Shown here: positions 3,002 to 53,758 of the stretch, piece by piece
Numbering within the stretch: position 1 is the first letter of the stretch
Layout: the number at the start of each line of letters is the position of its first letter
NCBI RefSeq assembly: GCF_017876495.1
Contig: NZ_JAGIOB010000001.1
Coordinates: forward strand, 2,728,001 to 2,792,000
Source of the DNA: Microlunatus capsulatus
GTDB taxonomy: Bacteria; Actinomycetota; Actinomycetes; Propionibacteriales; Propionibacteriaceae
Direction: 5' to 3'
DNA: 64,000 bases
Made by a program: the position numbers and the translations under genes
The notes under the pieces: model-generated
What the model was told of the DNA's origin: nothing
Database searches by the model: none
The model's input: only the letters and a program-made list of their open reading frames with translations

Positions 3002-3070
3002 CTCAGCTGAGCCGGTCTCAGCTGCCCCGGTCTCAGCTGAGCCGGTCTCAGCTGAGCCGGTCTCAGCTGA
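3002..3070. repeat. 15-bp tandem repeat, about 4.6 copies
   Basis: Unit CTCAGCTGAGCCGGT repeats at 3002, 3017 (variant CTCAGCTGCCCCGGT), 3032 and 3047, with a partial copy at 3062-3070. Each unit contains the palindrome TCAGCTGA. The last partial copy supplies the stop codon and last codon of the minus-strand holin-like gene. It separates two convergent genes and could act as a terminator region. Confidence 0.85.
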
Positions 3071-31824: not shown

Positions 31825-34650
31825 GTGGCAGGCAAAGCAGGTGGCAAGCGGCTCGTGATCGTGGAGTCGCCCACCAAGGTGAAGACGATCGCGGGGTACC
31901 TCGGCGACGGCTACGTCGTCGAGTCCAGCCGTGGGCACGTCCGCGACCTGCCGACCGGCGCCGCCGAGGTGCCGGCCAAGTACAAGGGTGAGAAGTGGGC
32001 CCGCACCGGCATCGACGTCGAGCACGGCTTCGAGCCGATCTACGTCGTCAGCCCCGACAAGCGCGCCACGATGCGCACCCTCAAGGACGCGCTCGCCGGC
32101 TCCGACGAGCTCCTGCTGGCCACCGACGACGACCGCGAGGGCGAGGCCATCGCCTGGCACCTCCTCCAGGAGCTCAAGCCGAAGGTCCCCGTCCGCCGGA
32201 TGGTCTTCCGCGAGATCACCGCGAAGGCGATCGCCGACGCCGTGGCCAACCCGCGCGACCTCGACACCGACCTCGTCGACGCCCAGGAGACCCGCCGCAT
32301 CCTCGACCGGCTCTACGGCTACGAGGTCTCCCCGGTGCTGTGGAAGAAGGTCATGCCGCGGCTCTCGGCCGGCCGGGTGCAGTCCGTCGCCACCCGCCTG
32401 GTGGTCGAGCGCGAGCGGGAGCGGATCGCCTTCCGCGCCGCCTCCTACTGGGACCTCGACGCCGTGCTGGACGCCGGCGCCCCGGCCGACCCGCCCCTGT
32501 TCCCGGCCCGGCTGACCCACGTCGGGGAGCGCCGGGTGGCCCAGGGCCGCGACTTCGACAGCCACGGCGCCCTGGTCGCCAGGGGCAGCGAGCAGCTCGC
32601 CCACCTCGACGAGGCCACCGCCCAGCAGCTGGCCACCGGCCTGCGCAGCGCGACCTACGCCGTGCAGAGCGTGGAGTCGAGGCCCTACACCCGCAAGCCC
32701 TACGCGCCGTTCCGCACCACGACGATGCAGCAGGAGGCCGGCCGCAAGCTCGGCTTCACCGCCCAGCGCGCGATGTCGGTGGCCCAGGACCTCTACGAGG
32801 CCGGCTTCATCACCTACATGCGCACCGACTCCTCGGTGCTGTCCGACACCGCGCTGACGGCGGCGCGCAACCAGGTGACCCAGCTGTTCGGCGCCGACTA
32901 CCTGCCGGCGAAGCCGCGCACCTACGCCAGCAAGCAGAAGAACGCGCAGGAGGCCCACGAGGCGATCCGGCCCGCCGGCGACACCTTCCTCACCCCGGCG
33001 CAGACCAACCTGCGGGGTGACCAGTTCCGGCTCTACGAGCTGATCTGGATGCGCACCGTGGCGTCGCAGATGAAGGACGCGGAGGGCCAGTCGATCACCG
33101 TCCGGATCGACGCCACCCGCCCGTCGACGGGCTCAGGGGGCGAGGCCCCGGAGGTTTGCCGCTTCACCGCCTCGGGCCGCACCATCACCTTCCACGGCTT
33201 CCTCAAGGCCTACGTCGAGTCGACCGACGACGACTCCACCTCTGACGACGCGCAGACCCGGCTGCCGCAGCTGACGCAGGGCCAGAGCCTGCGGCCCGAG
33301 AGCGTCACCGCCTCGGGCCACGAGACGCGCCCGCCGGCCCGCTACACCGAGCCGTCGCTGGTGGCCAAGCTCGAGGAGCTGGAGATCGGCCGGCCGTCGA
33401 CCTACGCGTCGATCATCCGGACGATCACCTCGCGCGACTACGTGTTCAAGAAGGGCTCGGCCCTGGTGCCGACCTGGCTCGCCTTCGCGGTCACCCGGCT
33501 GCTGGAGGAGCACTTCCCGAACCTCGTCGACTACGCCTTCACCGCCGAGATGGAGCAGACGCTCGACCAGATCGCCGGCGGCAACGCGCAGCGGTTGTCG
33601 GTGCTCAACGACTTCTACTTCGGCGCGGCCGCCGACGGCACCGACGCCGGCGACGCCGCGGCCCACGAGGGCCTGCAGCGGCTGGTGTCGGAGCTGGGCG
33701 ACATCGACGCCCGCAAGCTGTCCACCTTCCCCGTCGGGGACCTGGAGACCGACACCGATCCGTCGACAGGCTCAGGAGGACCGATCGTCGTCCGGGTCGG
33801 CCGCTACGGCACCTACGTGGAGGACGCCGAGGGCCGCCGCGCCAACGTCGACGAGGAGCTGCCGCCGGACGAGCTCACCGTCGAGCTGGCCCGCGAGCTG
33901 CTGAGCAAGCCGATGGGCGAGGAGCGCGAGCTGGGCGTCGACCCGGAGACCGGGCACCCCGTCGTCGCGCGCAACGGCCGGTTCGGCCCCTACGTCACCG
34001 AGGTGCTCCCCGAGGACGCGCCGAAGAACGCCAAGGCCCGCACCGGCTCGCTGTTCCAGTCGATGAGCGTGGAGACCGTCACCCTGGAGCAGGCCCTCGA
34101 GCTGATGAGCCTGCCCCGGGTCGTGGGCACCGACGCCGAGGGCGTCGAGATCACCGCCCAGAACGGCCGCTACGGGCCCTACCTCAAGAAGGGCACCGAC
34201 TCGCGCTCGCTGACGAGCGAGGACCAGATCTTCGCGATCACCCTCGACGAGGCGCTGGCCATCTACGCCCAGCCGAAGCAGCGCGGCCGGGCCGCGGCCA
34301 AGCCGCCGCTCAAGGAGCTGGGCCCCGACCCGGTCTCGGGCGCGCCGATGGTGATCAAGGACGGCCGCTTCGGCGCCTACGTCACCGACGGCGAGTTCAA
34401 CGCCACGCTGCGCCGCGACGACGACATCGCCACCATCACGCCCGAGCGCGCGGCCGAGCTGCTCGCCGAGAAGCGTGCCAAGGGCCCCGCGCCGAAGAAG
34501 CGCACCGCCGCCAAGAAGGCGCCGGCGAAGAAGGCCCCCGCCAAGAAGGCGGCGGCCGGCACGGGGACGGCGAAGAAAGCGGCGGCGAAGAAGGCTCCCG
34601 CGAAGAAGGCCCCGGCGAAGAAGACGGTCGCGGCCGAGGCCGGCCGCTGA
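31825..34650 (+). CDS. topA: DNA topoisomerase I
   Basis: 941 residues from GTG. Toprim domain with VIVESPTKVKTI at 12-23 and the metal-binding DDDREGEAIAWH near 101; active-site tyrosine in FITYMRTDSS near residue 331. The C-terminal half has topo-C repeats (for example GRYGTYVE, GRFGPYVTE, GRYGPYLKKG, GRFGAYVTDG) in place of zinc fingers, and a Lys/Ala/Pro tail (AKKAPAKKAP) that binds DNA. It relaxes negative supercoils. Two identical peptide inserts PSTGSGG at residues 433-439 and 646-652 come from in-frame copies of a 20-bp repeat. Confidence 0.97.
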   Translation: MAGKAGGKRLVIVESPTKVKTIAGYLGDGYVVESSRGHVRDLPTGAAEVPAKYKGEKWARTGIDVEHGFEPIYVVSPDKRATMRTLKDALAGSDELLLATDDDREGEAIAWHLLQELKPKVPVRRMVFREITAKAIADAVANPRDLDTDLVDAQETRRILDRLYGYEVSPVLWKKVMPRLSAGRVQSVATRLVVERERERIAFRAASYWDLDAVLDAGAPADPPLFPARLTHVGERRVAQGRDFDSHGALVARGSEQLAHLDEATAQQLATGLRSATYAVQSVESRPYTRKPYAPFRTTTMQQEAGRKLGFTAQRAMSVAQDLYEAGFITYMRTDSSVLSDTALTAARNQVTQLFGADYLPAKPRTYASKQKNAQEAHEAIRPAGDTFLTPAQTNLRGDQFRLYELIWMRTVASQMKDAEGQSITVRIDATRPSTGSGGEAPEVCRFTASGRTITFHGFLKAYVESTDDDSTSDDAQTRLPQLTQGQSLRPESVTASGHETRPPARYTEPSLVAKLEELEIGRPSTYASIIRTITSRDYVFKKGSALVPTWLAFAVTRLLEEHFPNLVDYAFTAEMEQTLDQIAGGNAQRLSVLNDFYFGAAADGTDAGDAAAHEGLQRLVSELGDIDARKLSTFPVGDLETDTDPSTGSGGPIVVRVGRYGTYVEDAEGRRANVDEELPPDELTVELARELLSKPMGEERELGVDPETGHPVVARNGRFGPYVTEVLPEDAPKNAKARTGSLFQSMSVETVTLEQALELMSLPRVVGTDAEGVEITAQNGRYGPYLKKGTDSRSLTSEDQIFAITLDEALAIYAQPKQRGRAAAKPPLKELGPDPVSGAPMVIKDGRFGAYVTDGEFNATLRRDDDIATITPERAAELLAEKRAKGPAPKKRTAAKKAPAKKAPAKKAAAGTGTAKKAAAKKAPAKKAPAKKTVAAEAGR
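33121..33140 (+). repeat. Interspersed 20-bp repeat inside topA, copy 1
   Basis: CCGTCGACGGGCTCAGGGGG, beginning exactly at a codon and read as PSTGSGG with the next base. It falls in a variable loop before the conserved ASGRTITFHGFLKAYVE block. Matches copy 2 at 18 of 20 bases. Confidence 0.8.
33760..33779 (+). repeat. Interspersed 20-bp repeat inside topA, copy 2
   Basis: CCGTCGACAGGCTCAGGAGG, again in the same codon phase and again read as PSTGSGG, placed just before the first topo-C repeat VVRVGRYGTYVE. The core TCGACAGGCTCAGG resembles a repeat I recall as widespread in actinobacterial intergenic DNA. Confidence 0.8.
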
Positions 34651-38605: not shown

Positions 38606-38783
38606 TTGCGCCGAACTTCGCTGGGCGGACCCCTCGCCGGGACAGTCCCGGGCGCAGCGGAGGTGGAGGAACCACTCGGGATCCCGTCCGCGGGAGCCCT
38701 GGGGTGAAGCGCTCGAACCGTCGGTTCGGCGAGCGCCGGGCACCTGACTCGCCCGAACCCGTCAGCTAACTTCACAGGCGTCA
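38606..38783 (+). promoter_or_regulatory. c-di-AMP riboswitch (ydaO/yuaA class)
   Basis: The conserved core of the class is readable: GCGCCGAAC at the 5' end, GGTGGAGGAACCAC near 38661-38674, TGGGGTGAAGC near 38700, and the 3' signature CCCGAACCCGTCAGCTAAC ending in CACAGGCG. P1 can form between GCGCC (38608-38612) and GGCGT (38777-38781). Riboswitches of this class bind c-di-AMP and commonly precede rpf and other cell-wall hydrolase genes in actinobacteria, turning them off. Here it precedes exactly such a gene. Confidence 0.88.
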
Positions 38784-38801
38784 GTCAGGAAAGGTACTGA
38801 C
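38780..38801 (+). promoter_or_regulatory. Hairpin enclosing the ribosome site after the c-di-AMP aptamer
   Basis: GTCAGT (38780-38785) and ACTGAC (38796-38801) form a stem with the purine-rich AGGAAAGG in its loop. Its 5' arm shares bases 38780-38781 with the P1 helix, so ligand-stabilised P1 and this hairpin compete. This is a plausible translational expression platform. Confidence 0.45.
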
Positions 38802-38805
38802 GACG

Positions 38806-39447
38806 TTGTTGACGTCCACCCTCATGAAGCGCCTCGTCGGCGTGCTGGCCTCGCTGGCCCTCGCCCTCGGCCTCGTCTCCCTCGCCACCCCGCCCGCCTC
38901 GGCCGCCAGCACCGTCTGGGACAAGGTCGCCCGCTGCGAGAGCGGCGGCAACTGGAAGATCAACACGGGCAACGGCTACTACGGCGGCCTGCAGTTCTCC
39001 AGCCGCACCTGGTCCGGCTTCGGCGGCGGCAAGTACGCCTCGAAGGCCCACAAGGCGAGCAAGGGCGAGCAGATCGCCGTCGCCCGTCGGGTGCTCGCCT
39101 CCCAGGGCGCGGGCGCCTGGCCCACCTGCGGCCGTAAGGCCGGCCTCTCCAAGAGCAACGGCCACGCGAGCAAGAGCGCGACGCCGTCCAGCAACCCGGG
39201 CGCGAAGAAGTCCAGCTCGGCCAAGAAGTCCTCGTCGGCGAAGAAGTCCTCCTCGGCGAAGAAGTCCACCGCCAAGAAGTCGAGCTCCAAGGCGAGGACG
39301 ACCAAGGTCAAGAGCGGTGACACGCTCGCCAAGATCGCCCACCGGCACGCGGTGAAGGGCGGCTGGAAGGGCCTCTGGAAGCTCAACAAGAAGACGCTGA
39401 AGAACCCGAACCGGATCAAGGTCGGTCAGGTTCTCCGGCTCCGCTGA
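38806..39447 (+). CDS. Resuscitation-promoting-factor-like transglycosylase with LysM domain
   Basis: 213 residues from TTG 38806, or 207 from ATG 38824 (MKRLVGVLASLALALGL). TTG lies 11 bases after AGGAAAGG, while the ATG has no ribosome site, so the start is open. A signal peptide ends at ASA near residue 33. The Rpf fold follows: VWDKVARCESGGNW with the catalytic Glu near 45, then GYYGGLQFSSRTWSGFGG. A Ser/Lys linker built of KKSS repeats leads to a C-terminal LysM (KSGDTLAKIAHRH...RIKVGQVLRLR) that binds peptidoglycan. Secreted cell-wall lytic enzyme controlled by the c-di-AMP riboswitch. Confidence 0.92.
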   Translation: MLTSTLMKRLVGVLASLALALGLVSLATPPASAASTVWDKVARCESGGNWKINTGNGYYGGLQFSSRTWSGFGGGKYASKAHKASKGEQIAVARRVLASQGAGAWPTCGRKAGLSKSNGHASKSATPSSNPGAKKSSSAKKSSSAKKSSSAKKSTAKKSSSKARTTKVKSGDTLAKIAHRHAVKGGWKGLWKLNKKTLKNPNRIKVGQVLRLR

Positions 39448-42756: not shown

Positions 42757-42832
42757 GCCGCCTTAGCTCAGATGGCAGAGCAACGCACTCGTAATGCGTA
42801 GGTCGAGAGTTCGATTCTCTCAGGCGGCCCCA
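42757..42832 (+). tRNA. tRNA-Thr (anticodon CGT)
   Basis: Full cloverleaf: acceptor GCCGCCT / AGGCGGC, D-stem GCTC/GAGC, anticodon stem ACGCA/TGCGT with loop CTCGTAA, T-stem GAGAG/CTCTC with TTCGATT. The anticodon CGT reads ACG. The discriminator is C (42829) and CCA is encoded (42830-42832). It borders the accessory region and sits next to an integrase remnant, so it is the probable attachment site of an integrated element. Confidence 0.96.
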
Positions 42833-42846
42833 CCCGAACCACCTGG

Positions 42847-42989
42847 TCATGGCGACTTGCGTCTGGCGCCACGAGCACCGTCTCCGCTTGGAGGCCCGAC
42901 GTGCCCCCGGGGTGCCCCGAGCCGCTGCGCGGTGTCCCACAGGTTGCGGTCGATCACGTGCCCGTAGAGGTCCACGGTCACAGCCGCCG
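42847..42989 (-). pseudogene. Truncated tyrosine recombinase/integrase C-terminus
   Basis: About 47 residues on the minus strand, TVDLYGHVIDRNLWDTAQRL and a short tail to a stop at 42847. This resembles the C-terminal end of phage-type integrases, whose last catalytic Tyr lies in a (D)xYGH block. Upstream similarity stops where the 28-bp repeat begins (42990); the rest of the gene is missing. Its end points to tRNA-Thr 15 bases away, the usual layout of an integrated element. Confidence 0.55.
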
Positions 42990-43028
42990 GTGCGCAGCAC
43001 GTCAGTGACCGACCCTCGTGCGGAGCAC
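42990..43028 (+). repeat. 28-bp repeat family, one full copy plus partial
   Basis: GTGCGCAGCAC (42990-43000, one change from the consensus end) followed by a perfect 28-base unit at 43001-43028. It interrupts the integrase remnant. The following 310 bases to 43337 show no gene; they hold a stem GATGTTGC / GCAACATC (43272-43317). Confidence 0.9.
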
Positions 43029-43337
43029 GGTAGCGCCATCGACTCTTACCGCCTGCTGCGGCTGACTTCAGCTGCGCGAGGCGGGTGAACCTCGGATGAC
43101 CTGCCTCGTGTTGCTCCCTACCCCCGGACCCGCCGAGACAGGGGCGCATCCCCTCGGGGGTGTGTCTCAGGCCAGCCCTCCCCCTGACGTCAGCGACGCT
43201 CCTTGACGACGTCTTCGCATTGAGAGCCCTCACATCCGCACTAGCCGTGGAGAGACCAACGGGCAGTTTGAGATGTTGCTGTAAGGCGCTCTGGAGGCAC
43301 GAAGCCCCTGCAACATCACCGAAACCCTTGCGGGGTA

Positions 43338-43428: not shown

Positions 43429-44421
43429 ATGCGCAAGATCATCGGAGCCGTAGCAGCTCTCACCCTGACGGTCGCACTGGCGGGGTGTGGAGACAGCGGG
43501 AGCGGAACCACGGCAGAGCCTGGCGGACAAGCCGGCTCGAACGAGAAGATCACCATGGGCTTCGCCCAGGTGGGTGCCGAGAGCGGCTGGCGGACCGCGA
43601 ACACCAAGTCCATCCAGGACTCGGCGAAGGAGGCTGGCGTCACGTTGAAGTTCTCCGACGCCCAGCAGAAGCAGGAGAACCAGATCAAGGCGATCCGCTC
43701 CTACATCCAGCAGAAGGTCGACGTGATCGCCTTCTCCCCGGTGGTGGAGTCCGGTTGGGACACCGTGCTCAACGAGGCGAAGCAGGCGAACATCCCTGTC
43801 GTGCTCACCGACCGGGCGGTGGACTCCTCCGACGAGTCGCTGTACGTGACCTTCCTGGGCAGCGACTTCGTGGAGGAGGGCAAGAAGGCCGGCGAGTGGG
43901 TGGCGAAGGAGTACACCGACTCCAGCGACCCAGTCAAGATCGCCCAGATCGAAGGGACCACGGGGTCGGCCCCGGCGATCGACCGGGCGGAGGGCTTCAA
44001 GACGGCCCTTGCCGGGGACAGCAAGTTCGAGGTGGTGGCTTCGCAGACCGGCGACTTCACCCGCGCGGGGGGCAAGCAGGTCATGGAGGCCATGCTGAAG
44101 TCGAACCCGGACATCAACCTGGTCTACGCCCACAACGACGACATGGGTCTCGGCGCCATCGAGGCGATGGAGGCCGCTGGGAAGGTGCCGGGCCAGGACA
44201 TCAAGATCGTCACCGTCGACGCGGTGAAGGACGGCATGACCGCCCTGAGCGAGGGCAAGATCAACTACATCGTCGAGTGCTCACCGATTCTGGGCCCGCA
44301 GCTGATGGACGTCGCGCAGAAGGTCAAGGCTGGGGAGAGCGTGCCCAAGCGGATCCTCACCGAGGAGACGACCTTCACCCCTGAGCAGGCGAAGGAAGCA
44401 CTGCCCAACCGGCAGTACTAA
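43429..44421 (+). CDS. ytfQ: Galactofuranose-type sugar ABC transporter, substrate-binding lipoprotein (YtfQ-like)
   Basis: 330 residues from ATG after AAGGAGG. Signal peptide with lipobox ALAGC at about residue 20. The mature part follows E. coli YtfQ closely: FAQVGAESGWRTANT, QQKQENQIKAIRSYI, GWDTVLNEAKQANIPVVLTDR, GTTGSAPAIDRAEGFK, SQTGDFTRAGGKQVME and VYAHNDDMGLGAI. YtfQ binds galactofuranose, and the sugar contacts appear kept. First gene of the operon; a strong hairpin follows it and may keep its level above that of the other components. Confidence 0.92.
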   Translation: MRKIIGAVAALTLTVALAGCGDSGSGTTAEPGGQAGSNEKITMGFAQVGAESGWRTANTKSIQDSAKEAGVTLKFSDAQQKQENQIKAIRSYIQQKVDVIAFSPVVESGWDTVLNEAKQANIPVVLTDRAVDSSDESLYVTFLGSDFVEEGKKAGEWVAKEYTDSSDPVKIAQIEGTTGSAPAIDRAEGFKTALAGDSKFEVVASQTGDFTRAGGKQVMEAMLKSNPDINLVYAHNDDMGLGAIEAMEAAGKVPGQDIKIVTVDAVKDGMTALSEGKINYIVECSPILGPQLMDVAQKVKAGESVPKRILTEETTFTPEQAKEALPNRQY

Positions 44422-44441
44422 GCCTCCTCGGGGAGGTAAGT

Positions 44442-44478
44442 CTCGGCCGCTGCCGCCTCTTCGTCGGCAGCGGCCGAG
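44442..44478 (+). terminator. Intra-operon hairpin between ytfQ and ytfR
   Basis: Perfect 14-bp stem CTCGGCCGCTGCCG / CGGCAGCGGCCGAG with a nine-base loop, 20 bases after the ytfQ stop. Such partial terminators or mRNA-stabilising hairpins are usual after binding-protein genes. A (CCCCCG)x3 run at about 44492-44510 follows. Confidence 0.65.
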
Positions 44479-44537
44479 GCCTCCTTCTGCACCCCCGCCC
44501 CCGCCCCCGCCCCTACACCGAACAGTCGAGGAACACC

Positions 44538-46112
44538 ATGACGGGCACCGCCGCCCCACCCCCCGCTGCCGACACGGTTGCCGAAGCGCGGCCGGTGGTC
44601 GAGATGCAGGACATCAGCATCAGCTTTGGCCCGGTCCGAGCTCTCGAGGGCGTCAGCTTTCGCCTGCTGCCCGGCGAAGTCCACTCCCTGATGGGGGAGA
44701 ACGGGGCCGGCAAGTCGACCTTGATCAAGGCTCTCACCGGGGTCTACACACCCGACGCCGGGACAACGCGGTTGGACGGGGAGCCGGTGACCTTTTCAGC
44801 GCCAGGGCAGGCGCAGGCCGCGGGTATCAGCACCGTGTACCAAGAGGTCAACCTCCTGCCGAACCTCACCGTGGCCGAGAACATCCTGCTGGGGCACGAG
44901 CCTCGGCGGTTCGGTGGCATCCACTGGTCGGCGATGCGTCTGCGTGCGGCCGAGCTGCTCGACGGGCTGAGCCTCAAGGTCGACCCGGGCTCGCTGCTCG
45001 GTGACCACTCGCTGGCGATCCAGCAGCTCGTGGCCATCGCCCGCGCAGTCAACGTCGAGGCCCGAGTACTCGTGCTGGACGAGCCGACCTCAAGTCTGGA
45101 CGCCGATGAGGTGGCCGAGCTTTTCCGGGTCATCCGGAGCCTCAAGAGCAGCGGGGTGGCGATCCTGTTCGTCAGCCATTTCCTCGACCAGGTCTATGAG
45201 ATCAGCGACCGGCTGACTGTTCTACGCAATGGCCGCCTCGTGGGGGAGTACCGCACCGAGGACCTGCTGCGTATCGAGTTGGTGCAGAAGATGATCGGCA
45301 AGGACCTCGCGGTCCTGGACGACCTCGAGCGGAAGACCCACACCACTACCCAGAAGGAGACCGAGACTCCGGTGGTCGCGGCGACAGGACTGGGGCGCAA
45401 GGGCTCAGTCCAACCGCTCGACCTGTCCATCGGCGCGGGTGAGGTGGTCGGCATAGCCGGGCTGCTCGGCTCCGGTCGCACCGAGGCGGCACGGCTCCTG
45501 TCCGGCGTCGACCGGGCCGACAGCGGCACGATCACCGTCGAAGGCCGGCAGGTGAAGTTCCGCAGCCCGCGCGCCGCACTGCGACACCGGGTGGCCTACG
45601 CCTCGGAGAACCGGCGGGCCGAGGGCATCATCGGCGACTTGTCGGTCCGGGACAACATCACGCTGGCCCTGCAGTCCGACCGCGGCTGGCTCCGCCGCAT
45701 CCCCCGTCGCCGTCAAGACGAGCTCGCCGCCAGTTACATCGCGGCTCTGCACATCCGCCCGGCTGACCCCGACGCCCTGGTCCGCAACCTCTCCGGCGGC
45801 AACCAGCAGAAGGTGCTGCTGGCTCGCTGGCTGGCCACCGCACCTCGCCTGATGATCCTCGACGAGCCCACCCGGGGTATCGACATCGGCGCTAAGGCCG
45901 AGATCCAACGGCTGGTCGCGGAGCTCGCCGAGAACGGCATGTCGGTGCTGTTCATCTCCGCCGAGCTGGAGGAAGTGCTCCGGCTCAGCCATCGGGTGGT
46001 GGTGATGCGCGACCGTCACAAGGTGGCCGACCTCGAGAACGAGGACCTCACTGTGAAGACCATCCTCTCCGTCATCGCCGACGGAGCCTCCTCTGAAGGG
46101 ACTTACGCATGA
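44538..46112 (+). CDS. ytfR: Sugar ABC transporter ATPase, two ABC domains (YtfR-like)
   Basis: 524 residues from ATG. First ABC domain: Walker A GENGAGKSTLIKAL near 55, Walker B VLVLDEPTSSLD near 178; its signature is altered (LAIQQLVAIARA), as usual. Second domain: GLLGSGRTEAARLLSG near 310, signature LSGGNQQKVLLARWL near 417 and LMILDEPTRGIDIGAK. This is the RbsA/MglA/YtfR type of monosaccharide transporter ATPase. It overlaps the first permease gene by ATGA. Confidence 0.93.
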   Translation: MTGTAAPPPAADTVAEARPVVEMQDISISFGPVRALEGVSFRLLPGEVHSLMGENGAGKSTLIKALTGVYTPDAGTTRLDGEPVTFSAPGQAQAAGISTVYQEVNLLPNLTVAENILLGHEPRRFGGIHWSAMRLRAAELLDGLSLKVDPGSLLGDHSLAIQQLVAIARAVNVEARVLVLDEPTSSLDADEVAELFRVIRSLKSSGVAILFVSHFLDQVYEISDRLTVLRNGRLVGEYRTEDLLRIELVQKMIGKDLAVLDDLERKTHTTTQKETETPVVAATGLGRKGSVQPLDLSIGAGEVVGIAGLLGSGRTEAARLLSGVDRADSGTITVEGRQVKFRSPRAALRHRVAYASENRRAEGIIGDLSVRDNITLALQSDRGWLRRIPRRRQDELAASYIAALHIRPADPDALVRNLSGGNQQKVLLARWLATAPRLMILDEPTRGIDIGAKAEIQRLVAELAENGMSVLFISAELEEVLRLSHRVVVMRDRHKVADLENEDLTVKTILSVIADGASSEGTYA

Positions 46113-47194
46113 GCCGCCTCCTGCGGTCCCGGCTCATCTGGCCGGTCGCCGTCCTGCTCGTCCTGCTGGTGATCAACGTGTCGGTGGTCCCGGGCTTCCT
46201 CACCGTCACCGTCCGCGACGGTCACCTCTTCGGCAGCCTGGTGGACATCGCCCGCAACGGCGCCCCGACCCTCATCATCGCCGTGGCCATGACCCTGGTG
46301 ATCGCCACCCGCGGCATCGACCTCTCCGTCGGCGCCGTCGGCGCCATCGCCGGCGCCCTGACCTGCTCCATCATCATCGACGCTCCCGACCCGGGCTCCC
46401 CCGCAACGGTCGCCGCAGCGATCGGCATCTCCCTGGTGCTCGCGCTGGCGCTGGGCCTGTGGAACGGCGCCCTCGTCGCCGCCCTCGGGCTGCAGCCCAT
46501 CGTCGCCACCCTCATCCTCATGACCGCCGGCCGCGGGGTGGCCATGCTGATCACCGAGGGCCAGATCGTCACCGTCAACAGCCCGGCCTTCAAGGTCATC
46601 GGCTCGGGCTTCCTGCTCGGGGTCCCGGTCCCGGTCCTGATCGCCGTCGCCGTCGTCGTCCTCGCGGCCGTGCTGACCCGGCGCACCGCGCTCGGGCTCC
46701 TGATCGAGTCCGTCGGCATCAACCCCGAAGCCAGCCGGCAGGCCGGCATCCGCAGCCGCGGCCTCGTGATCGGGGTCTACGTGGCCTGCGCCCTCGCCGC
46801 AGCACTCGCAGGGTTGGTGCTCACGTCCAACCAGACAGCCGCCGACGCCAACAACACCGGGCTGTTCATCGAACTCGACGCCATCCTCGCCGTCGTCATC
46901 GGCGGCACATCGCTAGCGGGCGGGCGCTACTCCCTGGCCGGCACCGTGGTGGGCGCTCTGGTCATCCAGACCCTGGTCACCACCGTCTACACCGTCGGCA
47001 TCCCGCCCATCGTGACCATGATCTTCAAAGCAGCCGTCATCACCGCCGTCTGCCTCCTGCAGTCCCCAGCCACGACCGCGACTCTCGCCCGCTGGCGCCG
47101 CTCCCTCCGCGGCAGCCCACCGGCTGGCGCTGCTCCGCCGCCACCGTCTACGCCTCTGGTCCAGGGCAGCGGCGCGAAGGTGGCCCTCCGATGA
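46109..47194 (+). CDS. ytfT: Sugar ABC transporter permease (YtfT-like)
   Basis: 361 residues from ATG. Eight to ten membrane segments with BPD_transp_2 blocks: VDIARNGAPTLIIAVAMTLV, ATRGIDLSVGAVGAIAGAL and ELDAILAVVIGGTSLAGGRY. RbsC-type permease, first half of the channel, with a Pro-rich cytoplasmic tail. It overlaps the second permease gene by ATGA. Confidence 0.92.
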   Translation: MSRLLRSRLIWPVAVLLVLLVINVSVVPGFLTVTVRDGHLFGSLVDIARNGAPTLIIAVAMTLVIATRGIDLSVGAVGAIAGALTCSIIIDAPDPGSPATVAAAIGISLVLALALGLWNGALVAALGLQPIVATLILMTAGRGVAMLITEGQIVTVNSPAFKVIGSGFLLGVPVPVLIAVAVVVLAAVLTRRTALGLLIESVGINPEASRQAGIRSRGLVIGVYVACALAAALAGLVLTSNQTAADANNTGLFIELDAILAVVIGGTSLAGGRYSLAGTVVGALVIQTLVTTVYTVGIPPIVTMIFKAAVITAVCLLQSPATTATLARWRRSLRGSPPAGAAPPPPSTPLVQGSGAKVALR

Positions 47195-48225
47195 CCGCCC
47201 TCCGCGTCGGGTCTGACGTCAACCGGCCCGGAAGGCGGCGAGACCGCCCCAGCCTCGCTCATCTGGTCGACCTGATCACCAGCCCCAAGCACGGTCCCGT
47301 GATCGTCACCGCCGTCCTGTTCATCGTCCTGTTCGGGGTGGGCGGGGGTCTGTACGAGGGCTTCTTCTCCGCCCAGGTGCTCGCCAACCTGCTCGTCGAC
47401 AACGCCTTCCTGCTGGTGCTGGCCGTCGGGATGACCTTCGTGATCCTCTCCGGCGGCATCGACCTCTCGGTAGGGGCGGTCATGGCCCTGTCCACCGTCA
47501 TCGCCGCCCGGCTGCTGCAAGCCGGGGTGGGGCCGGCGGTCACCATCGTCGCCGTCCTCGCGGTCGCCTCCGTGCTCGGGCTGCTGGTGGGCGGGATGAT
47601 CCAGCACTTCGGGGTGCAGCCGTTCATCGCCACCCTGGCGGCGATGTTCCTCGCGCGCGGGCTCTGCTACGTCATCGCCCCGCAGTCGATCTCCATCGAC
47701 GACCCGTTCTTCACCACCGTCGCGTCCCTGCAGATCCCGGTCTGGGCCGACGTCACCGTCTCACCGGGCGCCGTCATCGCGGTGCTCGTCGTCCTCGCGG
47801 CGTTCCTGGTGCTCCGCGCCACCCGTTTCGGCCGAACCGTGTACGCCCTCGGCGGTGCGGAATCCTCCAGCCTGTTGATGGGACTGGCGGTGAACCGGAC
47901 GAAGATCGCCGTCTACGTGATCAGCGGCTTCTGCTCTGGTCTGGCCGGCATCCTCTTCAGCTTCTACACCTTGTCGGGCTACAGCCTCACCGCGATCGGC
48001 GCCGAGCTGGACGCCATCGCCGCGGTGGTGATCGGGGGGACCCTCCTCACCGGCGGCTACGGCTTCGTGCTCGGCTCGGCCCTCGGCGTGCTGGTGCTGG
48101 GCACGATCCAAACGATCATCACGTTCCAGGGCACGCTCAGCTCCTGGTGGACGCGCATCTTCATCGGGGCGCTCCTACTGGTGTTCATCGTCCTGCAGAA
48201 GCTCTTGACGACGAGGCGGACCTGA
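47191..48225 (+). CDS. yjfF: Sugar ABC transporter permease (YjfF-like)
   Basis: 344 residues from ATG. Matches E. coli YjfF in LVDNAFLLVLAVGMTFVILS, GGIDLSVGAVMALSTVI, ARGLCYVIAPQSISIDDPFF, ELDAIAAVVIGGTLLTGGYG and GTLSSWWTRIFIGALLLVFI. It completes the four-gene YtfQRT-YjfF importer. No galactofuranose-metabolising gene follows; the next gene is the LacI regulator, 65 bases on. Confidence 0.93.
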   Translation: MTALRVGSDVNRPGRRRDRPSLAHLVDLITSPKHGPVIVTAVLFIVLFGVGGGLYEGFFSAQVLANLLVDNAFLLVLAVGMTFVILSGGIDLSVGAVMALSTVIAARLLQAGVGPAVTIVAVLAVASVLGLLVGGMIQHFGVQPFIATLAAMFLARGLCYVIAPQSISIDDPFFTTVASLQIPVWADVTVSPGAVIAVLVVLAAFLVLRATRFGRTVYALGGAESSSLLMGLAVNRTKIAVYVISGFCSGLAGILFSFYTLSGYSLTAIGAELDAIAAVVIGGTLLTGGYGFVLGSALGVLVLGTIQTIITFQGTLSSWWTRIFIGALLLVFIVLQKLLTTRRT

Positions 48226-48290
48226 CCGCTGCGGCAGAATGGCGGTCGGTGAGGTGGGCGTTGGACGTGAGGCAGGGACGGAGGAGGTAA

Positions 48291-49358
48291 GTGGTGAACG
48301 AAGACGGTCGTGAGCGAGCGCCGAACATCTTCGACGTCGCACGGCTGGCCGGCGTCTCGCACCAGACTGTTTCGCGGGTGATCAACGACCACCCCAACGT
48401 CCGCGACTCGACGCGAGAGCGCGTGCAGAAGGCCGTCCGCCAGCTGCGTTACCGCCCCTCCACGGCAGCCCGCGCGATGGTCAGGCGGCGGTCGCGCAAC
48501 CTCGGCCTGATCACCACCGGCTCTCCGGACTACGGTCCGGCCAGCACCGTCCTGGGCTTCACCGCCGCAGCGCGGGAAGCCCGCTACACCGTCAGCATCG
48601 CGCCGCTACCCGACTCCGACCCGGACTACGTACGGGCCTCCGTCGAGCTCCTGCTCAGCCAGTCGATCGAGGCAGTCGTCGTCCTAGCTACCCGGCGGAG
48701 CCTCATCAACACCCTCGCGGCGGTCGAGCTCGACCTCCCCGTAGTCGCCGTGGACCCCAGTGGGGTCCTGGCTACGACCACGGTCGCGATCGACCAGTAC
48801 GCCGGAGCCCGCCGAGCCACCGGCTACTTGATCAGCCAGGGCCACCGCAGCATCGTCCACCTCGCCGGCCCCGCGGACTCGATCGACGCCGCCGAACGAA
48901 CACGCGGGTGGCAAGACGCTATGACCGACTACGGGTTGGCCGCGCCAACCCCTGCCGAGGGCGACTGGTCCCCGGCCAGCGGCTACGCCTTCGGTCGTCA
49001 GCTGGGCAGCGGCGTGAGCGGTCTGCCCACCGCCGTCTTCTCCAGCAACGACCAGATGGCCCTCGGTCTGCTGCACGCCTTGCGCGACCGCGGCCTCGAC
49101 GTACCCGCAGACATCAGCGTCATGGGCTTCGACGACATTCCCGAGGCCGAGCACGTCGTACCACCGCTCACGACGATGCGCCAAGACTTCGTCCAGCTCG
49201 GCCACGACATCATGGCCACGGTGCTCCACGAGCTCGAGGAGCTCGACTTCGCCCTCCCACGCTCCCTGCCGCAGCTGGTTGTGCGGGAGTCTGTCCGAGC
49301 GCTCAGCGGCGCAGTCGCCACCGAACGGCTGCCGGCTGGAGCAGTTGCGCGCATCTGA
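48291..49358 (+). CDS. LacI-family transcriptional regulator of the ytf operon
   Basis: 355 residues from GTG 48291 (a second GTG follows at once) after GGAGGAGG. N-terminal helix-turn-helix NIFDVARLAGVSHQTVSRVI at 12-31 with the hinge RPSTAARAMVRRRS, then a type I periplasmic-binding effector domain (GHRSIVHLAGP; FSSNDQMALGLLHAL; SVMGFDDIPEAEHVVPPLTT). Probably represses the operon by binding the operator at 43338-43360 and is released by the transported sugar. The 160 bases after it (49359-49520) hold no gene. Confidence 0.93.
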   Translation: MVNEDGRERAPNIFDVARLAGVSHQTVSRVINDHPNVRDSTRERVQKAVRQLRYRPSTAARAMVRRRSRNLGLITTGSPDYGPASTVLGFTAAAREARYTVSIAPLPDSDPDYVRASVELLLSQSIEAVVVLATRRSLINTLAAVELDLPVVAVDPSGVLATTTVAIDQYAGARRATGYLISQGHRSIVHLAGPADSIDAAERTRGWQDAMTDYGLAAPTPAEGDWSPASGYAFGRQLGSGVSGLPTAVFSSNDQMALGLLHALRDRGLDVPADISVMGFDDIPEAEHVVPPLTTMRQDFVQLGHDIMATVLHELEELDFALPRSLPQLVVRESVRALSGAVATERLPAGAVARI

Positions 49359-49520
49359 CCCCACTCAGAGCGACCAGACAACCTGCCCGACTTCTTCGAT
49401 GCACAGGCCCAAGAGGCCACCCCTTCCCGCTGAACTCCGGCCGCAACCTACCCGCGCGCGGATGCACCCAGGGCTGGCGCACAAGACAGAATGCCTGGGC
49501 GAGCAGGTCGTGCATGAGGC

Positions 49521-49994
49521 GTCAGTCGACCCTCGTGCGGAGCACGTCAGTGACCGACCCTCGTGCGGAGCACGTCAGTGACCGACCCTCGTGCGGAGCA
49601 CGTCAGTGACCGACCCTCGTGCGGAGCACGTCAGTGACCGACCCTCGTGCGGAGCACGTCAGTGACCGACCCTCGTGCGGAGCACGTCAGTGACCGACCC
49701 TCGTGCGGAGCACGTCAGTGACCGACCCTCGTGCGGAGCACGTCAGTGACCGACCCTCGTGCGGAGCACGTCAGTGACCGACCCTCGTGCGGAGCACGTC
49801 AGTGACCGACCCTCGTGCGGAGCACGTCAGTGACCGACCCTCGTGCGGAGCACGTCAGTGACCGACCCTCGTGCGGAGCACGTCAGTGACCGACCCTCGT
49901 GCGGAGCACGTCAGTGACCGACCCTCGTGCGGAGCACGTCAGTGACCGACCCTCGTGCGGAGCACGTCAGTGGCCGACCCCGTGCGGGACGCAC
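49521..49994 (+). repeat. Tandem array of a 28-bp repeat: 15 identical copies with degenerate ends
   Basis: Fifteen identical units run head to tail from 49546 to 49965. A 25-base variant precedes them (49521-49545) and a mutated unit follows (49966-49994), with further decayed traces to about 50015. Each unit is GTCAGTGAC (odd palindrome GTCA-G-TGAC), then CGACCCT, then CGTGCGGAGCAC, which with the next G makes a hairpin CGTGC-GGA-GCACG. There are no spacers. The unit length is not a multiple of three and all frames are broken. Function unknown. Confidence 0.97.
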
Positions 49995-50036
49995 GCAGTA
50001 GCCGACCGGTGCACGATCAGAGACTGCGGTGAAAAT

Positions 50037-50753
50037 CTACGAGGATTGTGCTGCGGCAGCGGTCGTGAGGCGCGTCATCAGGTCGTGAAGGCTGGTGATG
50101 CGTTCCTCAGTGTCGGCAGCGCCGGCGTCGTTGCGGTCGAGGTGAAGGGCGTGGAGTCCGGCGGCGCGCGCGCCGAGAACGTCCAGGTCGGACCGGTCGC
50201 CGATGTGCAGCGTCTGCTGCGGTTCGACCCGCAGCTGCTGGCAGGCGCCCTGGTATGAAGCGGGGTCGGGCTTGGCAACGGCGAGCTGTTCGGAGGTGAT
50301 GACGGCGTCGAGTTGGTCGCGGAGCCCGATCTGGTCGATCTTGGCGTTCTGCTGGGTGGCGGCTCCGTTGGTGAGGACGGCGGTGAGGTAGCCGAGCCTC
50401 CTCAGCTCGGTGAGGACGGGGCTGGCGTCGTCGAACGTCTGCCAGGCGTGCTCGTAGTGGGTCAGGTACGTGGCGAAGAGGGCGTCGAGGTCGTCGTCGG
50501 GCTGCAGCTGGCGGCCTAGGTGGGGCCAGAAGTCGCGGATGCGCCGGCGCCTCTGCTCGTCGAAGGAGATGTCTCCGAGCCGCCAGCTGTCGTAGTGCAC
50601 GTGCTCGAGGTCGAACCAGACATCGGTGAGTCGTCCGAGGTCAGCGTCGGGCACGTGGGGCAGCCACTGGGCGAGCGCGGCGCGTACCGAGCCGCTGTGG
50701 TCGAACAGGGTGTCATCGAGGTCGAAGAGGACGGCGCGGATCGCGGGGGTCAC
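50037..50753 (-). CDS. HAD-superfamily hydrolase (YjjG/PhnX-like phosphatase)
   Basis: 238 residues from GTG. TAGCCT lies six bases upstream on this strand, a leaderless start. HAD motifs: I AVLFDLDDTLFDHSG near 8-20, II AVLTNG near 140, III/IV KPDPASYQGAC and HIGDRSDLDVLGARAAG. A helical cap lies between I and II, type C1. Probably a phosphatase for a small phosphorylated metabolite. It lies alone between the tandem array and another repeat cluster. Confidence 0.9.
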   Translation of the reverse strand: MTPAIRAVLFDLDDTLFDHSGSVRAALAQWLPHVPDADLGRLTDVWFDLEHVHYDSWRLGDISFDEQRRRRIRDFWPHLGRQLQPDDDLDALFATYLTHYEHAWQTFDDASPVLTELRRLGYLTAVLTNGAATQQNAKIDQIGLRDQLDAVITSEQLAVAKPDPASYQGACQQLRVEPQQTLHIGDRSDLDVLGARAAGLHALHLDRNDAGAADTEERITSLHDLMTRLTTAAAAQSS

Positions 50754-50775
50754 CTGAGGAGGCTAAGCCTGCGAA

Positions 50776-50858
50776 CGACCCTCGTACGGAGCACGTCGAC
50801 CCTGGTGCGGAGCACGTCAGTGACCGACCCTCGTGCGGAGCACGTCAGTGACCGACCC
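50776..50858 (+). repeat. 28-bp repeat family, cluster of about three units
   Basis: A partial unit with GTACGGAGCAC (50776-50794), a 21-base shortened unit with CCTGGTGCGG (50795-50815), a perfect unit (50816-50843) and a 15-base start of another (50844-50858). It begins 22 bases before the HAD gene's start. The next 299 bases to 51157 show no gene. Confidence 0.92.
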
Positions 50859-51157
50859 CTCAGCGACGACACCGCTTCCCGGTGGTTCATCCCACCGCCC
50901 GGGGTAGCGCCACCCCGATCTGGCACTGTCTCCCTTCGACCATGCGGTCGACTGCAGCGTGGTCGTCCCCGTCTGGGGCAAGCCGATGCGCAACAGACGA
51001 GCCCGCCGCGGAAGAGCTTCCACCTCGTGTCGACCAGCCGTAACCGGGCAAGTCCCTTCTCGAGGTCTGACTACTGGGGTTTATCCAGGGAGATGACCGG
51101 GTGGAACAGATGGTTCACCCAGAGATGGGGCGGTCTTCGTAGGCCTAGCGTGGGCTG

Positions 51158-52639
51158 ATGCTCTCAAGAATCTCGGCGCTGCGTCCTGTCCGACTCGCGG
51201 TGGCCCTGACCCTTGCAGCCGGTCTGCTGCTCTTGTTTGCGGTGCCCGCCTCAGCCGATGAGCGGGTGGACATCGCGACGGTCGATCGGTGGATCTGGGA
51301 CTACCTGAGGGCCGAGGGCCTTCCAGGGGCGGCGGTGGCGGTCGTCCATGATGGTCAGATCGTCGTGGAGACCGGGCAGAGTACGAACGGCGACCCGATC
51401 ACTGCGACCACGCCCATGTCGATCGGCTCGGTGAGCAAGATGATCACCGCCTTCGCCGTGCTGCAGCTGGTCGATCAGAGGAAGGTTGATCTCGACCGGT
51501 CGGTCACCAGCCAGCTCCCCGAGTTCACGCTGGACGATCCACGTGGTGCCGAGATCACCGTCCGCCAGCTCCTCGAGCACACCTCGGGACTACCGAACCC
51601 GCTGGTCATCGCGGCAGCGGCCGACCCGGCTCAGCGAGTCAGCCAGGTGCGGACCATCTCGCTGGACAACGACCCCGGTACCACGTACGCCTACAGCAAC
51701 CTCAACTACCAGACGGCAGCGCGGCTGGTGGAGACCGTGTCCGGACAAGACTTCGCGACGTACCTCGACGAGCACATCTTCACTCCCCTGGGGATGGCCG
51801 ACACCCGCTCGGTGCTGACCACCCCGAACGAGGTCGGGCTCGACGACGGTCACGTCACGGCGTACGGCGGCGCTTGGCGTCTTCGTGAGATGACGGCGAT
51901 GTACATCGGGTCTGGCAGCGTGATCAGCACTGCCCACGACATGGCCCTGTGGTTGGCCATGCAACAACGCGGCGGGGTCACTGCTGACGGGACGCGACTG
52001 CTGTCGCAGGAACTGATCACCCAGGCACGCTCACCGCGGGACGGATCGACGTACGCGCTCGGCTGGCAGGCCACCACGACGTCGACTCCGCCACGGATCG
52101 GTCACGACGGCGCCCTGACCCGCTACAGCGCCCGCGCCGAGCTGGTCCCCAGTAGCGGGTATGGCGTGGTGGTGCTGCTCAACAGCTACACCCCGATCAC
52201 CAAGCATCCGTTCGAGATCTCCGCTGGTGTCGTTGCCCTCACCGAGGGCCGAGCGCCCAGTTCTGGTGCACCAGTAGCCACGATCGTGGACGCGATCCTG
52301 GGCGTTCTCACCCTCGCCGTCGTGGCTCTGGCCGTGGTCGGTCTCCGTCGAGCGCCGCGGTGGGTCGAGCGGCGATCCAACAGGTCGACATGGAGCTTCG
52401 GTCTGCGGCTGGTCCCGCAGCTCCTCGCGCCAGCGGTGGCGATCTACGTCTTCGCCGTGCTGCCAGCACTCGACAACAACTCCGCCACGCCTGTGGATGC
52501 CCTCGGCCTGTTTCCTGCGCTGATGATCCTGCTGGCCATCAGCGCGGTCGGCGGGATCCTGGTGACGGCGACCCGGCTGGTCCTCCGTCAACAGGGAGCG
52601 GCTCTGAACCTGTCGGCGGAGAGACAGTCGTCCTCTTGA
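51158..52639 (+). CDS. Secreted serine hydrolase, beta-lactamase/DD-peptidase (class C) fold
   Basis: 493 residues from ATG, six bases after TAGCGT (51146-51151): leaderless-type. Signal peptide with AFA-type cleavage near VPASADE (about residue 33). Active-site motifs: SVSK near 92-95 (SxxK), YSN near 181-183 and GHDG near 313. After the catalytic domain (to about 365) come four membrane helices, so the enzyme is anchored. Such proteins are usually peptidases or esterases of unknown substrate rather than true beta-lactamases. Codon use is less GC-rich than in the flanking core genes. Confidence 0.88.
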   Translation: MLSRISALRPVRLAVALTLAAGLLLLFAVPASADERVDIATVDRWIWDYLRAEGLPGAAVAVVHDGQIVVETGQSTNGDPITATTPMSIGSVSKMITAFAVLQLVDQRKVDLDRSVTSQLPEFTLDDPRGAEITVRQLLEHTSGLPNPLVIAAAADPAQRVSQVRTISLDNDPGTTYAYSNLNYQTAARLVETVSGQDFATYLDEHIFTPLGMADTRSVLTTPNEVGLDDGHVTAYGGAWRLREMTAMYIGSGSVISTAHDMALWLAMQQRGGVTADGTRLLSQELITQARSPRDGSTYALGWQATTTSTPPRIGHDGALTRYSARAELVPSSGYGVVVLLNSYTPITKHPFEISAGVVALTEGRAPSSGAPVATIVDAILGVLTLAVVALAVVGLRRAPRWVERRSNRSTWSFGLRLVPQLLAPAVAIYVFAVLPALDNNSATPVDALGLFPALMILLAISAVGGILVTATRLVLRQQGAALNLSAERQSSS

Positions 52640-52887
52640 GGGCCGCACCAGAAGTGAAGCGCCTCCCGCAACACTTACCCGGTCTACGACGTGCAGCCTC
52701 CACTGCCATGTCGGATGAGGTCGGTCCACGGGACGACGTCGTCAAGGTTCTGTGACGGCGCGGTCGGAGGAATCGTCTTCCTCTTGGTCACACACCGGAG
52801 CTCTGGGTAGCCCGTTGATCCTTGTTCTTCGGGTGCCGGGGTCCTCCCGTTCGCCGCGACTCTCTGGTTCGGCGCCATCCGGCCCGG

Positions 52888-52956
52888 GTCAGTGGACGAC
52901 CCTCGTGCGGAGCACGTCAGTGGACGACCGTCGTGCGGCCGACCCTCGTGCGGAGG
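52888..52956 (+). repeat. 28-bp repeat family, divergent cluster
   Basis: A 28-base unit with GTCAGTGGACGACC (52888-52915), a shortened second unit (52916-52938) and a third fragment CCGACCCTCGTGCGGAGG (52939-52956). These carry a shared variant GTGGACGACC not seen in the main array. The stretch 52640-52887 before it has no gene I can support. Confidence 0.85.
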
Positions 52957-52996
52957 CGTGCGGGCCCCTGAGCGACGAGGCCGGACAGCCCCGGAG

Positions 52997-53758
52997 TCAG
53001 GCGTGGAGATCCGCGTGGACCGGTCGGTCGGCCGGGCGCCGTGCGCGGGCGGGCGGGAGAGCGGTCATCAGGAGGACCGCAGCGCCCAGCACGCCGACGG
53101 CGACGACGGTGGGGTAGCCGGCTCCCGGCGGGACGTCCCAGTTCGCGTCGCTGAAGACGGTCACCATGAACGCGTAGTCCAGGATCGACGGGAACTGGCC
53201 GACCGCGGTCGAGCCGGCCAGCACGAACGCGACCCGCGACAGCGTCCGAACGCTGAGCCGCTCTCGAGCGGCGATCACCACGAACGCGACGACGGCGCTC
53301 AGGTCCACGGCGAACAGCAACAGGCGGAAGCCGACGTCCAAGGCGTCGCTGCGCACGGACAGGAGGTTTCCCAGGGCCACGCCCGCGGTCAGCACGGCCG
53401 GGATGCCAGCCACCACACGGGTCCCGCGGGACCAACCCGCTGCCGCCAGGACGGCGACCCAGGACAGCGTCCACAGCAAGGCGCAGACCATGCCGAGCAG
53501 GGACTCGGTCCCCCACGGGTCCTCGCCGCTGGGCCAGACGAAGGCGAACCCGCCCCGGTCCATCGTCTCCAGGCAGGCCTCGCTGAAGTCCGGCCCGTAC
53601 GCGTACCCGCGCAGGATGGAGCCGCTCAACATGGACCCGCGGCAGTCCAGCCAGTGCTCGCGCACCGCCCCCGCGCCGGCGACCGCCCCGAGCAGCAGGA
53701 GGACCGCTGCGGTGGACCAGGACCTGCGGGAGGTGTGCACGGACCGGACTCTAGCCAT
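52997..53758 (-). CDS. Membrane protein, hypothetical
   Basis: 253 residues from ATG, or 247 from GTG at 53738-53740, which lies seven bases after TAGAGT and would be leaderless. About six membrane segments; between segments 1 and 2 an outer loop has two cysteines (WLDCRGSML; SEACLETM). No family recognised. It lies after the last repeat cluster and ends convergent to nothing obvious; its codon use resembles the core genome. Confidence 0.7.
   Translation of the reverse strand: MARVRSVHTSRRSWSTAAVLLLLGAVAGAGAVREHWLDCRGSMLSGSILRGYAYGPDFSEACLETMDRGGFAFVWPSGEDPWGTESLLGMVCALLWTLSWVAVLAAAGWSRGTRVVAGIPAVLTAGVALGNLLSVRSDALDVGFRLLLFAVDLSAVVAFVVIAARERLSVRTLSRVAFVLAGSTAVGQFPSILDYAFMVTVFSDANWDVPPGAGYPTVVAVGVLGAAVLLMTALPPARARRPADRPVHADLHA

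Follow-up and report, generated by a model that had tools for sequence, protein, structure and literature searches.

Co-oriented 28/29-bp repeat sites in Microlunatus capsulatus and relatives, possible boundaries of exchangeable cassettes

The locus described here raises the question of how a perfect head-to-tail array of 28-bp units, lacking spacers, came to stand in the chromosome of Microlunatus capsulatus, and whether it stands there alone. The window, meaning the whole stretch of DNA that was analysed, comprises 64,000 nucleotides (positions 2,728,001 to 2,792,000 of contig NZ_JAGIOB010000001.1), and its genome, hereafter G000, is a single 4.41-Mb contig. We use the handles of other genomes only where they need to be told apart.

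The array and its surroundings in the window

A recount in the sequence gave 15 identical copies, base for base, of the 28-bp unit GTCAGTGACCGACCCTCGTGCGGAGCAC at 49546–49965, as an earlier note on this DNA had reported, with a variant of 25 bases directly to the left of the perfect copies, a decayed unit of different build to their right from 49966, and both palindromes of the unit, GTCA-G-TGAC and CGTGC-GGA-GCACG, in place. The stretch with an exact period of 28 is 446 bp long (49527–49972), and in the frame that starts at CGACCC the array reads as 16 units of a type that we call A (CGACCCTCGTGCGGAGCACGTCAGTGAC) followed by one closing unit of type B. Chance is of no concern for the array, because its TRF score was 909 and that of the runner-up in the window was 124, and recent amplification or homogenisation of the perfect copies, as the earlier note proposed, is a fair inference. 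Other tandem repeats in the window lie at 34493–34623 (period 15/30, AAGAAGGCGCCGGCG) and 39202–39281 (period 18, AAGAAGTCCACCTCGGCC), both detected by TRF and both, we presume, resembling lysine-rich coding tails, and at 3002–3070, where a 15-bp unit, CTCAGCTGAGCCGGT, is repeated 4.6 times with 92% match.

The array had been pictured as isolated, and this proved wrong. More units were found in the window at 42982–43037, 49974–50002, 50776–50852 and 52897–52924, and a second cluster lies about 1.35 Mb away in the same genome; the existence of the latter rules out a lone satellite. The sites divide a GC-poor stretch behind a tRNA-Thr gene into blocks, as follows (sites from scans with weight matrices, the main array and the last two sites also from TRF):

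42757–42832, tRNA-Thr gene, about 150 bp before the first site
42982–43037, + strand, first site, two type-A units, one of them degenerate
43429–49358, + strand, block 1, an operon for a sugar-type ABC transporter plus a LacI-type regulator, names taken from inspection of the translations, in an interval of 6.5 kb
49521–49545, + strand, variant copy of 25 bases at the left edge
49527–49974, + strand, main array, 16 type-A units including the 15 identical copies
49974–50002, + strand, closing type-B unit, then a partial unit
50037–50753, − strand, block 2, a HAD-family hydrolase gene (Pfam PF00702)
50776–50852, + strand, site with three type-A units, the first shortened to 21 bp
51200–52639, + strand, block 3, a serine hydrolase of beta-lactamase fold (Pfam PF00144), its start uncertain between 51158 and 51200
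52897–52953, + strand, last site, one type-A unit (52897–52924) with truncated copies after it

For an empty-site comparison, the flank gene of this cluster gave a single close match, situated at a contig edge. Elsewhere in the window, a c-di-AMP riboswitch (ydaO/yuaA leader) was found above the Rfam gathering score at 38636–38795 on the + strand.

Units are confined to variable islands

The repeat family consists of two sister units, type A of 28 bp and type B of 29 bp (consensus CGACCCTCGTGCGGGACGCACGCAGTAGC). Type A (at most 2 mismatches) was present in 3 of 198 genomes of the bacterial family and type B (at most 3 mismatches) in 4 of 195, and all four unit-bearing genomes belong to the genus of the window. 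An exact scan of a species-genome collection, from which the genome of the window is possibly absent, returned two contigs, both from one Propionibacteriaceae MAG. A phage or plasmid element was rejected, phage and plasmid records having given no unit match at E 1e-5 with the BLAST low-complexity filter on; a type-A 19-mer occurs in two viral contigs holding the same single 31-bit copy, which we take for chance, and the type-B 21-mer had no viral match. Literature searches, covering mainly papers outside subscription, returned no description of the repeat system among the matches listed (titles and abstract openings), and no full-text match to a 13-base core string.

Within G000, a 21-bp core (at most 3 mismatches) occurs 58 times in forward and never in reverse orientation, and 56 of these matches fall in the window cluster and in the second cluster, cluster B, at 4.124–4.153 Mb. 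Weight matrices, run on 15 regions (431,542 bp) that had been selected for earlier pattern matches, identified 267 units (156 of type A, 111 of type B) that score 15 bits or more. These form 107–112 sites, depending on merging distance, where a site is a run of 1 to 19 units in a single orientation. All units of at least 15 bits lie on one strand within each of the 15 regions, 11 of which hold two or more units, the four single-unit regions being uninformative on orientation. At a threshold of 11 bits two antisense matches appeared, equal to the number in the reversed control (2 in 431,542 bp), and 800 kb of background sampled from G000 and the single-contig relative G006 contained one match (16.1 bits). 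Collapse or expansion of perfect repeats could in principle make the copy number of the perfect array an artefact of assembly, which we consider exceedingly improbable for this locus: the family rests on at least 107 sites in four genomes, and G006 carries a separate array of 16 type-A units (1677939–1678386).

Two of the 267 units lie inside genes called by a simple script. Across five clusters, the median spacing of sites is 0.9–2.0 kb (range 144 bp to 18 kb), exactly one called gene occupies 38 of the 79 between-site intervals, and GC content is 66.5–70.1%, compared to 72–77% in 39 of 40 background samples and 67% in the other one. Cluster genes run both ways relative to the units (78 with, 75 against).

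The position of sites relative to genes bears on the idea that the units act at gene ends as transcription terminators or RNA hairpins and were multiplied through slippage, a version of which (a terminator array) was among the options in the earlier note. The convergent setting is the commonest for a site (27 of 84), 15 of the 18 site-to-gene gaps of at most 30 bp lead to gene 3' ends, and each unit could form a hairpin of 5–6 bp, all points in favour of this idea; however, divergent genes flank 17 of the 84 sites, and unit direction ignores gene direction. Compared to shuffled sequences, the DNA hairpins are no stronger for type A (z about −0.4) and mildly stronger for type B (z −1.4 to −1.6), and compensatory changes show no excess. 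A stable hairpin followed by a T run was seen neither in the units nor in the array, and the single terminator-like site in 48000–53500, where 1.1 would be expected by chance, lies away from the arrays. A role in termination is thereby weakened, the proximity to 3' ends remaining a point in its favour, and we regard it as quite improbable.

The common orientation would also be compatible with a protein-binding or polarity array that serves the nucleoid, partition or fork polarity. The clusters in both single-contig genomes point from dnaA towards the presumed opposite terminus: G000, whose dnaA is at 2.43 Mb, has clusters at 2.77 and 4.14 Mb (+), and G006, whose dnaA is at 4.63 Mb, has them at 1.66 and 1.97–2.08 Mb (+) and at 2.92 Mb (−), besides one unit at 3.24 Mb (−). 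If the terminus lies opposite dnaA, all clusters are aligned with fork movement; GC skew, being flat, gave no position for the terminus. A comparable bias is seen in 25 of 30 sedentary integrons (PMC5371416). The pattern here nevertheless comprises at most six clusters, of which one is a single unit and two represent one homologous locus, and the units are almost absent from the sampled background, unlike genome-wide polarity motifs, leaving an array of this kind improbable.

The units are confined to variable islands. G000 cluster B and G006 cluster A have a common left flank (88% identity over 4.1 kb), and the corresponding hotspot locus (L031:6190-7527 and downstream) was taken from eleven other relatives, ten of which were compared, that of G018 being too short. 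The flanking genes are less than 0.5 kb apart in six of the ten (G002, G007, G008, G009, G012 and G016), inserts of about 14–18 kb are present in G001, G005 and G010, and in G004 the right genes are absent from the 19 kb examined. In G000 the hotspot spans 48.5 kb and holds 54 matches of at least 11 bits, and in G006 it spans at least 65.9 kb and holds 55; the ten relatives have at most one match each (11–14 bits), present in five of the ten. G016, which is closed at this hotspot, has type-B units elsewhere.

The genes carried in the islands are varied. Twenty proteins, 17 from the cluster B region and three from the window, were searched against Pfam and, having been picked by hand, give no rates; 11 were above the cut-off (LRR, alcohol dehydrogenase, MarR, NmrA, alpha/beta hydrolase, GNAT, PadR, AHSA1, HTH_20, HAD and beta-lactamase fold), one was just below and eight had no match. 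All ten hand-picked proteins from two G006 islands matched Pfam, with the families cupin, NmrA, TetR, ferritin-like (twice), Nramp, NMO, epimerase, APH-type kinase and GGDEF-EAL. None of ten proteins tried matched defence genes in PADLOC. A gene of the APH_6_hur kinase family lies between two unit sites in a G006 island (L062:10357-11082).

Block ends, recombination and the search for an enzyme

Comparison of the regions by blast with the units masked returned 38 rows of repeated segments, 18 of which lie within cluster spans or unit-bearing contigs. Two cases stand out. The first is a 463-bp block, in which the gene-calling script found no gene, present in three copies in G000 cluster B at 99.1–99.8% identity (4135753–4136215, 4148025–4148487 and 4151607–4152068; L032, L033). 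These copies are dispersed, not tandem, and have different neighbours; of their six ends, five adjoin a called unit, and the alignment shows a truncated unit at the sixth. The second block, of 304 bp, contains a 68-aa reading frame and is 92% identical in two species (G000, 4.137 Mb; G006, 2.918 Mb). Units stand at each of its four ends, and the match extends through them and then gives way to unrelated DNA. Random placement within the cluster would put both ends within 5 bp of units in 0.13% of positions for 463 bp and 0.05% for 304 bp, in a test devised post hoc. These two cases make up the four rows, among the 18, that have units at both ends; two rows have a unit at one end and 12 have none, several of the 12 being short or less than 80% identical. 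The two rows are a 224-bp pair in G006 with a unit at one end of both copies and a 729-bp two-gene segment in G000 and G006 with a unit 16 bp away from one end of one copy; the 12 include a segment of 320 bp that G006 and G018 share at 90% identity.

These results make it probable that the units bound exchangeable blocks. A recombination substrate is the best supported of the three options in the earlier note, which had also offered binding and terminator arrays, on account of the two copied or shared blocks with units on both sides. Because most shared segments have no units at their ends, we have less confidence in the readings that invoke block boundaries and a recombinase, and more in passive repeats, than the two cases would otherwise have commanded.

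The explanation that we tentatively favour is that the array belongs, as one site, to a set of directional recombination sites, restricted to the genus, that bound exchangeable gene cassettes, a cassette being the DNA between two sites, and that a dedicated site-specific recombinase acts on them. Recombination of two co-oriented units would excise the intervening DNA, which would re-enter at a different unit without ever changing its sense, and the cluster would thus stay one-directional; unequal exchange or slippage could then lengthen tandem arrays, the perfect one of the window among them. Entry of cassettes through a directional site is favoured because co-orientation is expected from it and not from free transposition of single units. 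The units would be recognised as double-stranded DNA by sequence, unlike folded attC sites, since they conserve sequence without covarying stem pairs. In favour of this explanation are the single orientation of the units in each region, their intergenic position, their restriction to variable islands and the two blocks that have units at both ends. Counting against it are the lack of a recombinase tied to the sites, the scatter of array edges, the small number of clean mobility cases (two) beside shared segments whose ends carry no units, the lack of stem covariation and the presence of genes running both ways. The right edges of arrays have modes near 6 and 17 bases into the unit but are scattered, and for this reason a fixed crossover at GTGCGG inside the unit, although compatible with three informative junctions, was rejected.

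A close rival holds that the units are passive repeats, which arrive with acquired DNA and contribute nothing beyond short stretches of homology; RecA-type exchange, slippage and gene conversion would then delete, duplicate and re-insert the DNA between co-oriented copies. We judge this a serious possibility. It fits the block ends at units and the perfect long arrays, as well as the scattered array edges, the lack of a linked recombinase and the lack of stem covariation, and the neisserial dRS3/NIME arrays provide a precedent (PMC3898611). It accounts less well for the many sites that are single diverged units, which would be poor substrates for homologous exchange, for the dispersal of the three 463-bp copies, and for co-orientation across islands of 25–100 kb, which would require each new site to come via an older one. 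We consider a site-specific recombinase, with its gene elsewhere, somewhat more likely than RecA acting alone.

No recombinase could be tied to the sites among the candidates examined, an IntI profile and a third XerC-like family. IntI (TIGR02249) was above the cut-off in none of 20 genomes of the genus, including all four that bear units, and in none of 14 controls, a search that hence contained no positive control. The third XerC-like recombinase (E ≤ 1e-32) is present in three of the four unit-bearing genomes, once in G000 and G016 and twice in G006, and was absent from the other 16 genomes of the genus; the fourth, G018, is a MAG of 83% completeness and lacks it. One G006 copy (1644177–1645049; L057:4177-5049) lies directly after the left gene of the hotspot, at the edge of unit-bearing island A and about 10–12 kb ahead of the first units of that island. 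The family also occurs in G072, G116 and G170, genomes of other genera in which the unit patterns were not found, and the neighbourhoods of the copies at G000 4.26 Mb (40 kb), G006 3.04 Mb (45 kb) and G016 C26 (37 kb) contain no unit of at least 15 bits.

The XerC-like gene of G000, G072 and G170 lies 78–151 bp from one copy of a 44–51-bp direct repeat, and no such repeat was found beside the gene in the G006 3.04 Mb, G016 C26 and G116 regions. By our reading, the repeats of G000 and G072 correspond to the last part of a ligD-type gene, at its 3' end, and that of G170 looks tRNA-like; ARAGORN detected no tRNA in four pieces of 250–260 bp. In three of its six regions the third XerC-like recombinase resembles an ordinary island integrase; we do not put it forward as the enzyme of the sites, and its link to the units is probably indirect. 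As an observation in its own right, the 51-bp direct repeat that adjoins the G000 integrase (4261544–4262437; L089:3544-4437) sits where a LigD-type polymerase gene has its 3' end, the G016 copy shares this neighbour, and the G072 repeat matches, by our reading, the end of the same gene, all of which suggests an apparent ligD-end integration site.

Comparison with integrons and other known systems

The many co-oriented sites, small varied cassettes and lack of a linked integrase are a layout shared with a true integron or with a CALIN, a cluster of attC sites without an integrase, and co-oriented sites that bound mobile cassettes, as in integrons, are found here (267 units; two blocks). The core motifs of attC sites are RYYYAAC and GTTRRRY. 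Neither motif occurs in any of the 267 units, and 56 sites with their flanks (13,045 bp) contained no RYYYAAC, four GTTRRRY and no pairs 40–150 bp apart. Stem covariation was absent among single units, with 2 compensatory double changes versus 1.3 in shuffles for type A (75 distinct units) and 0 versus 4.6 for type B (105 distinct units). A folded site had been suggested by an apparent extra base pair that distinguishes the A and B consensus, and received no support from a per-unit test on single units. With IntI below the cut-off throughout as well, an integron or CALIN proper is very improbable.

The earlier note had remarked that the unit is as long as many CRISPR repeats. Like CRISPR repeats, the units measure 28–29 bp and hold a small palindrome; the absence of spacers in the arrays, which the note also recorded, stands as a difference, whereas the match in length is a coincidence, since the units abut and it is genes that separate the sites.

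Genes in the pdif/dif modules of Acinetobacter plasmids likewise stand between 28-bp sites and are shuffled in modular fashion (PMC13141974). The pdif sites alternate in orientation and are built of XerC and XerD arms on either side of a 6-bp spacer, unlike the sites here, which have one orientation per region and occur in tandem; by eye, the units show no resemblance to the pdif arms printed in that paper.

Neisserial dRS3/NIME repeats are likewise short intergenic repeats with inverted ends that occur in arrays, and those arrays have been suggested to promote recombination and to be the target of a phage integrase (PMC3898611). The units here are similarly intergenic and lie at the ends of two blocks. 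The dRS3 element is 20 bp long with 6-bp terminal inverted repeats and reaches almost 700 copies per genome; in contrast, the copies here are island-confined, co-oriented and in perfect head-to-tail arrays. Even if RecA alone acts on them, one-directional repeats that split variable islands into gene-sized units of exchange would help explain gene turnover in the genomes that bear them.

Integrons are reported to be nearly lacking in Actinobacteria, where IntegronFinder 2.0 found no complete one (PMC9024848). Our data would be compatible with an integron-like gene-capture platform of separate origin in this phylum, built on tandem 28/29-bp sites recognised by sequence, with several clusters per chromosome and a recombinase other than IntI, an interpretation that we consider possible but rather unlikely. 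Were it correct, single genes would be shuffled in Actinobacteria by a separate integron-like system, and cassette capture would have arisen more than once.

In layout, though not in enzyme or core motifs, the clusters correspond to a sedentary chromosomal integron. The sites here differ from those of sedentary integrons in their lack of attC core motifs, stem covariation and an IntI over the cut-off and in being tandem runs of 28/29-bp units of variable number, and the clusters differ from promoter-driven integron arrays in having genes that run both ways. Like sedentary integrons (PMC5371416 and PMC8618304), they place co-oriented sites between small varied accessory genes, with sites that are similar within a lineage and arrays whose direction is apparently biased relative to replication.
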